Shown here: one piece after another, positions 42,903-44,116 of the stretch
Position numbering within the stretch: the stretch's first letter is position 1
How the letters are laid out: each line of letters begins with the position of its first letter
NCBI GenBank assembly: GCA_016290135.1
Contig: JAEESW010000018.1
Location: 1 to 44,239 of the forward strand
DNA from: a bacterium
Lineage (GTDB): Bacteria > UBP6 > UBA1177
Direction of reading: 5' to 3'
DNA: 44,239 nucleotides
The notes under the pieces: generated by a model
Told to the model about the DNA's origin: nothing
What the model saw: only the letters and a program-made list of their open reading frames with translations
Database searches by the model: none
Program-made: the position numbers and the translations under genes

Positions 42903-43018
42903 CGTCATGTTGAGGCTAAGCCGAAGTTCCCCGTCATGTTGAGCAGTGCGAGAAACATCTGTGACCTCTCCGTCACTACGTGACACCTCTCCTACTTCAG
43001 GAGAGGCAAGAAGCGGTA
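42903..43018. repeat. Intergenic repeat patch with REP-like elements and hairpins
   Basis: The 338-bp gene-free gap 42890-43227 begins here. It holds two copies of CGTCATGTTGAG (42903-42914 and 42932-42943), the second followed by GAAACATCT, a GTCAC/GTGAC hairpin (42972-42984) and a perfect 8-bp hairpin CCTCTCCT/AGGAGAGG (42986-42993 and 42999-43006). A third CGTCATGTTGAG occurs at 43983. Elements of this kind recur in many bacterial genomes as REP-like intergenic repeats. After direct-repeat copy A (43019-43068) the rest of the gap is AT-rich and contains only a possible -35, TTGACT, at 43166. Confidence 0.7.
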
Positions 43019-43068
43019 GAAACATCTCTGCTTTTGAATGGAAATGGGAATTATTTTGGGGAGTTATT
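43019..43068 (+). repeat. Direct repeat copy A flanking the toxin-antitoxin module
   Basis: This 50-bp block, from GAAACATCTCTG to GGGGAGTTATT, recurs at 44001-44050 with 47 of 50 bases identical; the three mismatches are adjacent (43031-43033). The last 35 bases are identical in both copies. Confidence 0.9.
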
Positions 43069-43227
43069 CTTGGCTAAAGCTGGTTTTCAGTTGCTGAGTC
43101 CGTCTTCAATTTTAAGATATTTTCTCGAATTGTTGAACTTTAAATATAATTTTATGATTAAAAACTTGACTTTATTTTATAGCAATAAATGATTTTGTAG
43201 TTTATTTCTTTGAAACAGAGGTGAAAA

Positions 43228-43647
43228 ATGAACTTTTATGCCGTCATTGATACAAATGTTGTTGTTTCTGCCATGCTGAAACGCGATTCTGTTCCGGCAA
43301 AGATAATTGATTTGCTGCTTGCAGGAATAATAATTCCGGTCTTTAATGAAGAAATATTGAGTGAATACGAGGAAGTTTTACTACGGCCGGAGTTCGGTTT
43401 CGCACAGGATGATGTTAATAAATTTATGGATTTCATGAGAAAAAACGGAATCTTTCTTGAAAAAAATCTTTCCGATGAAAAATTCAATGATCCGGACGAC
43501 GCTGTTTTTTATGAAATTGCACTGTCCGCAATAAAAAGCAGAGAAGCCTATCTTGTTACCGGAAACATCCGGCATTTTCCGCAAAAAGAATTTGTTGTTA
43601 CACCTCGCGACATACTCAATATTGTATTGAGTTATATTGACAAATAA
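43228..43647 (+). CDS. PIN-domain toxin (putative toxin component, PIN family)
   Basis: A 139-residue PIN-domain protein, a predicted metal-dependent RNase of a type II toxin-antitoxin pair. Acidic active-site candidates are Asp8 (VIDTNVVVSAM), Glu46 or Glu49 (LSEYEEVL) and Asp88-Asp91 (NDPDDAVFYEIA); TGNIRHFP (111-118) is the closing motif of the PIN_3 group, with Asn where others have Asp. The ribosome site is AGAGGTG. The DNA is clearly more AT-rich than the genes to the left, suggesting transfer. It stands before, not after, its presumed antitoxin, and the antitoxin promoter lies in its last codons. Confidence 0.88.
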   Translation: MNFYAVIDTNVVVSAMLKRDSVPAKIIDLLLAGIIIPVFNEEILSEYEEVLLRPEFGFAQDDVNKFMDFMRKNGIFLEKNLSDEKFNDPDDAVFYEIALSAIKSREAYLVTGNIRHFPQKEFVVTPRDILNIVLSYIDK

Positions 43648-43665
43648 TTTGTTTGTAAGTATAAT
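43637..43665 (+). promoter_or_regulatory. Exact-consensus sigma70 promoter for the antitoxin gene
   Basis: TTGACA at 43637-43642, a 17-nt spacer and TATAAT at 43660-43665: both hexamers and the spacer match the consensus fully. The -35 lies within the last codons of the toxin gene and the -10 in the 36-bp gap; the expected start of transcription is about 12 nt before the antitoxin ATG. Confidence 0.8.
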
Positions 43666-43683
43666 ATATTTGGAGGTGGTGAC

Positions 43684-43968
43684 ATGAGCTATACAATTCA
43701 AGTCAGAATAGATGATGATTTAAAAACCCAGGCGACTGAAGTTTTCGACCGTCTCGGTCTTGATTTTTCAACAGCGATCCGAATTTTTCTGAAAAAAAGT
43801 GTTGCGGTGAACGGCATCCCGTTCGAACTCAGAAACGAAACTCCGACGGAAGCAGCAGCCGCAGTCGAAAACATGAGGGCATCCGCGGAAGAAAACGACA
43901 TCGCGGATCTCACCCTTGATAAAATCAACGGAATCATCAACAAGGTCCGCGAAATCAGAAAAAAATAG
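43684..43968 (+). CDS. RelB/DinJ-family antitoxin
   Basis: A 94-residue protein with an N-terminal ribbon-helix-helix domain (TIQVRIDDDLKTQATEVFDRLG, then STAIRIFLKKSV and GIPFELR), the RelB/DinJ signature, followed by an acidic, probably flexible C-terminal half that would wrap the toxin. The RHH domain should bind operator DNA and autoregulate. A strong GGAGGTGGTGA ribosome site and a consensus promoter predict high expression. The partner is inferred from adjacency: DinJ-type antitoxins usually pair with RelE/YafQ toxins, whereas here the neighbour is a PIN protein. Confidence 0.9.
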   Translation: MSYTIQVRIDDDLKTQATEVFDRLGLDFSTAIRIFLKKSVAVNGIPFELRNETPTEAAAAVENMRASAEENDIADLTLDKINGIINKVREIRKK

Positions 43969-43982
43969 GTCTTCGTCCAACT

Positions 43983-44050
43983 CGTCATGTTGAGCAACGC
44001 GAAACATCTCTGACCTTGAATGGAAATGGGAATTATTTTGGGGAGTTATT
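43983..44050 (+). repeat. Direct repeat copy B with REP-like element
   Basis: CGTCATGTTGAGC (43983-43995) followed by the 50-bp block 44001-44050, nearly identical to 43019-43068. Together the two copies bracket the toxin-antitoxin module. Confidence 0.9.
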
Positions 44051-44116
44051 GCTTTTTTCCGCCAGCAGTTGGAACTGAAAGGTGAGTGACAATTTGTCCC
44101 CTTCCTCACAATAATG

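Follow-up and report, generated by a model that had tools for sequence, protein, structure and literature searches.

A gene pair near the end of the window (the whole 44,239-nucleotide stretch of DNA that we analysed) raises a simple question: how can a type II toxin-antitoxin module hold its antitoxin in excess when the toxin gene comes first and the antitoxin gene stands behind what looks like a promoter of its own? The reading that we favour, with a probability of about 0.74, is that of a mobile type II PIN_3/RelB cassette in reverse order, in which the usual strong promoter would have stayed in front of relB, leaving the toxin weakly transcribed and the antitoxin in excess.

The module occupies the last 1.3 kb of the 44-kb window (Table 1). 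Its first open reading frame matches PF13470 (PIN_3; 69.6 bits, E 5e-19) and TIGR00305 (44.9 bits, above the cut-off), and the second, which follows after 36 bp, matches PF04221 (57 bits) and TIGR02384 (RelB_DinJ; 75.7 bits, above the cut-off), in agreement with the identities that an earlier note had assigned by reading the sequence. No other Pfam or NCBIfam families scored above cut-off on the module. Residues D8, E46, D88 and D91 of the PIN protein are invariant among 34 aligned relatives. Its AlphaFold2 model (pLDDT 94.7) has VapC and other PIN proteins as fold neighbours, at weak E-values (best 2.8e-3 against solved structures). A sequence search of the PDB returned no relative of the PIN protein, hence no solved PIN/RelB complex to serve as a template, and DinJ and RelB structures that match the antitoxin. 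Both genes are under purifying selection when compared with L003, a locus of the same genus (dN/dS of 0.19 for PIN and 0.12 for RelB, figures that are rough because dS is as high as 1.38 and 0.89). The module matches no named anti-phage system in PADLOC.

Table 1. Coordinates of the gene pair, its predicted signals and its bounding repeats in the window
Feature	Position	Strand	Basis or remark
Left bounding repeat (CGTCATGTTGAGC... to ...GGAATTATTTTGGGGAGTTATT)	42932-43068	.	Repeat comparison
Weak candidate toxin promoter TTCTCG-17-TATAAT, 9/12	43122-43150	+	Consensus match only
Second candidate toxin promoter TTGACT-16-AATGAT, 9/12	43166-43193	+	Consensus match only
Shine-Dalgarno AGAGGTG of PIN gene	43217-43223	+	Sequence
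PIN_3 (TIGR00305) toxin gene, 139 aa	43228-43647	+	PF13470 and TIGR00305 matches
-35 hexamer TTGACA, predicted antitoxin promoter	43637-43642	+	Overlaps the toxin's last codons; invariant in L002, L003, L073
-10 hexamer TATAAT, predicted antitoxin promoter	43660-43665	+	Inside the intergenic gap
Shine-Dalgarno GGAGGTGG of relB	43672-43679	+	Sequence
RelB/DinJ antitoxin gene, 94 aa, PIN-type C-terminal tail	43684-43968	+	PF04221, TIGR02384
Right bounding repeat	43983-44050	.	44001-44050 94% identical to 43019-43068

Are the two proteins partners? The earlier note had considered RelB an unusual companion for a PIN toxin, and this view did not survive comparison. We drew PIN relatives from 28 genomes of the phylum, GTDB contigs, 392 genomes of the order of L032 and viral contigs, and tested their neighbours by profile searches. 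RelB proved the normal partner: it adjoins the PIN gene at 102 distinct loci, and is not visible at five (L125, at the edge of a contig; L068 and L069, which have PIN fragments; L142; L149). Pairs of PIN and ribbon-helix-helix proteins rank with the most frequent combinations in type II systems (PMC2701414). Among plasmid relatives, those of PIN are distant only, and those of RelB are mostly partial matches annotated as RelB/DinJ. The PIN-partnered RelBs have a common C-terminal tail (e.g., NGxSxMTLDEINAEI), whose core, written as the regular expression [TS][LM][DE][EDK][IV]N, is present in 81/101 of them and in 4/25 other RelBs. The four others are a locus at a contig edge (L076), one by an internally deleted PIN gene (L087), an orphan relB (L073) and a tail fused to ToxN (L094). 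The motif is absent from all examined RelBs with a RelE-, YafQ- or ParE-like neighbour. The window RelB carries it, as LTLDKIN, so it is probably cognate with its PIN neighbour, as the earlier note had supposed; a RelB borrowed from a DinJ-YafQ module was rejected on the strength of this tail. The fused tail is of interest in itself: a full-length ToxN (PF13958, 171 bits) ends in a 38-aa PIN-type RelB tail in two species (L094, 1498-2142, minus strand, and L168; G025:C22 and G023:C4), and the near identity of this DNA, upstream sequence included, suggests recent transfer.

The toxin-first order is the uncommon trait. At 99 of the 102 loci (some of which are near-identical copies) the antitoxin gene comes first, usually abutting or overlapping the PIN gene, and the window departs from this customary arrangement. 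The order that the earlier note had described was confirmed in the window and found at two other loci of the same genus, L003 and L002; the latter is the same locus as L012, whose PIN protein is the nearest public record (99% identity). In the PIN tree the three toxin-first loci form one clade (100/99), distinct from the PINs of antitoxin-first loci in the genus. The RelB tree gives the same picture, with L073 as a further member of that clade; both trees rest on few columns, and their deeper forks are unsure. Because the clades are separate in both trees, we rejected an origin by recent local swapping of the antitoxin-first module that the genus also has. One genome, G026, carries one module of each order. 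The earlier note would have been refuted had these two genes never been neighbours in homologous loci, and they clearly are neighbours.

What, then, would drive the expression of the antitoxin? The sequence TTGACA-17-TATAAT (43637-43665) precedes relB and matches the sigma70 consensus at 12/12 positions, with a spacer of exactly 17 nt, just as the earlier note had read it. That note had placed the promoter inside the toxin gene. This holds for the -35 hexamer only, which is contained in the final toxin codons, ATT GAC AAA TAA (I-D-K-stop), and not for the -10 hexamer, which is intergenic. No other site in the 44-kb window, on either strand, reaches at least 11/12, and, with the base composition of the region taken into account, a 12/12 site would fall by chance within the 120 bp preceding relB with a probability of about 1e-4. 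These consensus hexamers are plausible in this host, since the tRNA-Phe gene of the organism is preceded by TTGACA-16-TACTAT. Transcription of relB is predicted to start near 43672, the first base of its Shine-Dalgarno sequence, giving a leader of about 12 nt, so that transcripts beginning a few bases downstream would lack this ribosome-binding signal. The description of the promoter as one of maximal strength fits the 12/12 match in the window, but this perfection is not kept in the relatives, and strength is here predicted from the hexamers.

The toxin gene looks less well served. The best candidates upstream of it match the consensus at 9/12 positions, in line with the weak promoter mentioned in the earlier note, although the toxin promoter may be stronger than its consensus score or of another sigma type. 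No terminator-like site was found on the + strand between the two genes, so transcription of the toxin gene may continue into relB. Together with the two candidates before the toxin, and with the single promoter of most type II systems (PMC4803016), this would suit ordinary operon control, in which one promoter before the toxin is repressed by a RelB-PIN complex and the hexamers before relB contribute little. We consider such control unlikely, given how rarely a 12/12 site would arise there by chance, the conservation of the -35 hexamer and spacer at four loci, one of which lacks the toxin, and the comparable sites that antitoxin-first relatives have before relB (see below).

The four loci are the window (L001), L002, L003 and L073, none of which departs from TTGACA or from the spacer of 17 nt. 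The -10 hexamer varies from TATAAT in the window to TATAAA in L002, CATAAT in L003 and TACGAT in L073, and the scores of the three relatives are 11, 11 and 10 of 12. These figures should be interpreted with caution. At three of the four loci the overlapped coding sequence (I-D-K-stop) could by itself explain the conservation of the -35 hexamer, and since two of the three toxin-first loci are nearly identical, there are, apart from the orphan L073, about two independent comparisons. Still, the adjacency, the order and the 36-bp gap are kept in L003, whose PIN protein is 65% identical to that of the window, and 28/36 positions of the gap are identical despite a PIN dS of 1.38. In the 120 bp before the PIN gene, 62/129 aligned columns are identical between the same two loci.

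In the orphan locus, L073, rnfA is followed directly by the promoter and relB, and there is no PIN gene. Just before the promoter, L073 reads GAATTGTATTGACAAATAA, as does the L003 toxin gene at its end; L073 thus retains the last five codons of the toxin (AAT TGT ATT GAC AAA TAA, as in L003), and its ancestor was apparently a toxin-first module whose toxin was lost. A promoter for the antitoxin only, as predicted in the earlier note, is conserved in sequence at all three toxin-first loci as well as in a toxin-less relative. The RelB of L073 is very constrained relative to that of L003 (dN/dS of 0.025), and the value is 0.08 relative to the window. Could the whole module be on its way out, with a poorly expressed toxin being lost and an antitoxin kept against incoming PIN modules? 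The loss of PIN in L073 and the constraint on its RelB fit such a decay, as does an antitoxin-first module of genome G023 (L087, 1430-1875, G023:C1), where PIN has a large internal deletion and relB is intact. Yet at all three toxin-first loci the PIN gene is open, constrained (dN/dS of 0.19) and in possession of its active-site residues, and we find decay of the module rather improbable. In several genomes of the genus, the 3' end of rnfA itself has two or three matches spaced 1-5 kb apart (G000:C23, at 18150 and 23150; G015:C9; G021:C43; G023:C4; G025:C22), as if modules inserted at rnfA and restored the end of the gene, and the orphan relB of L073 lies at this very place.

The surroundings of the window module suggest that it moves. 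The window and L012 have in common a 1.1-kb block (about 42932-44053, 95% identity), and the genes around it differ: an alpha/beta hydrolase gene in the window and a methyltransferase-like gene in L012 (both named by eye). The repeats that bound the block also flank a RelB-ParE pair on contig C26 of the same genome and lie beside a RhuM gene on C49. In G016 (L180, G016:C8), the equivalent slot behind the hydrolase gene contains this bounding repeat and then a ToxN-like gene, and in G017 (L181, G017:C15) it contains a different, DUF1016-like gene (both genes named by eye). The varied flanks, the varied contents of the slot and the bounding repeats indicate a mobile, repeat-bounded cassette in an exchangeable slot. 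An integron gene cassette was rejected, as the integron integrase profile TIGR02249 had no match above cut-off in 15 draft genome assemblies of the genus. The copies of the repeat have neighbours of their own, namely the RhuM-family gene (L116, 1992-2831, G000:C49) and, adjoining the RelB-ParE cassette, a CRISPR-like array with a period of about 65 (L115, 986-1848, G000:C26). A repeat-rich slot that accepts varied genes might also bring PIN and RelB side by side by chance, the latter being an orphan that has a promoter of its own, much as the same relB occurs without PIN in L073. But RelB adjoins nearly every PIN relative and here has the PIN-type tail, the arrangement is kept in L003, and L073 holds the toxin's last codons and so once had a toxin. 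A chance association is thus highly improbable.

How did the order become reversed? Many antitoxin-first relatives have sites of 10-12/12 before relB (12/12 in L032, L046, L050 and L060), so the window promoter is probably the usual one of the family, with the toxin moved upstream of it. Tandem relB-PIN arrays offer a possible route. They include six pairs on G245:C223 (L165), with 24-nt gaps from each PIN to the next relB, three pairs on G297:C215 (L166) and two pairs in L039, where TTGACA-17-TACATT precedes the second relB. The antitoxins of L165 carry long proline-rich linkers. A two-pair array without its first relB and its last PIN would have exactly the order of the window. Such an array may have collapsed to PIN-relB, turning a shared promoter into an antitoxin-only one; shared transcription and the tight coupling of the genes would then have been lost and the logic of the module changed, and the promoter-antitoxin half would have been able to survive as a selected protective gene, as in L073. 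We put this scenario forward tentatively and regard it as more doubtful than likely. No ORF of at least 40 aa upstream of the window PIN gene matched the RelB profile when we searched for a remnant of relB.

Under the reading that we favour, the PIN_3 ribonuclease-fold protein (the putative toxin) and its cognate RelB would form a type II module in which the C-terminal tail of RelB probably binds and neutralises PIN. The toxin gene, being upstream of the strong relB promoter, would depend on its own weak transcription. The antitoxin would then be made both from its own promoter and by read-through of the toxin transcript, against a single source for the toxin. This would keep the antitoxin in excess without the genes sharing a promoter, or abutting or overlapping as they do in antitoxin-first relatives. 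RelB, if regulatory at all, would bind DNA via its N-terminal ribbon-helix-helix. RelB-family antitoxins repress their own promoters, and the spacer of the relB promoter contains an imperfect inverted repeat (TTGACAAA...TTTGTAA) whose arms, compared by eye, are largely kept in L003 and L073. This is suggestive only, as short AT-rich arms are expected by chance and the repeat is just a candidate, and the internal mqsA promoters of Escherichia coli are not autoregulated (PMC6918082). We consider a variant in which the antitoxin alone is under feedback and the toxin is weakly constitutive less likely than not.

Neither RelB-PIN modules nor reverse-order modules with an antitoxin promoter are new; both are already known. 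The antitoxin-first RelB/PIN_3 (TIGR00305) modules, such as L032, L050 and the genus's own L004-L011, have the same families, the same kind of RelB tail and a promoter-like site before relB, but in them the genes abut or overlap behind one promoter for both, whereas the window has the toxin first, a gap and a predicted promoter for relB only. A parallel in logic is mqsRA of E. coli, which is toxin-first like the window module and has antitoxin-specific sigma70 promoters: constitutive promoters of mqsA inside mqsR are together stronger than the operon promoter and give an excess of antitoxin (PMC6918082). The proteins are nevertheless unrelated to those of the window, and both mqsA promoters lie within the toxin reading frame. 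The rnlAB, higBA and hicAB systems of E. coli are likewise toxin-first with unrelated toxins and antitoxins, and an additional constitutive promoter has been reported in the toxin gene of rnlAB (PMC7167474). Domains of the MqsR, RnlA, HicA and HigB toxins gave no Pfam or NCBIfam match above cut-off in the window module. In the Synechocystis pairs sll0624/sll0624a and slr5116/ssr5117 the PIN3 gene also precedes the antitoxin gene, and at sll0624 the two genes have separate start sites (PMC4963859), but that antitoxin is HicB-like and not RelB. DinJ-YafQ and RelBE have a RelB/DinJ ribbon-helix-helix antitoxin like the window; they differ in having a RelE-fold toxin instead of PIN_3, the antitoxin first and a RelB tail without the PIN-type motif. 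In the open-access literature that we searched, we found no toxin-first PIN-RelB module with its own antitoxin promoter.

That one genus, and in one case one genome (G026), has both gene orders with the same families of toxin and antitoxin provides a clean natural comparison. It bears on whether a working PIN-RelB module needs shared transcription and abutting genes, and on how a module in reverse order holds its antitoxin in excess. The toxin-less L073 allows one to ask a further question: is an antitoxin with its own promoter kept as protection?
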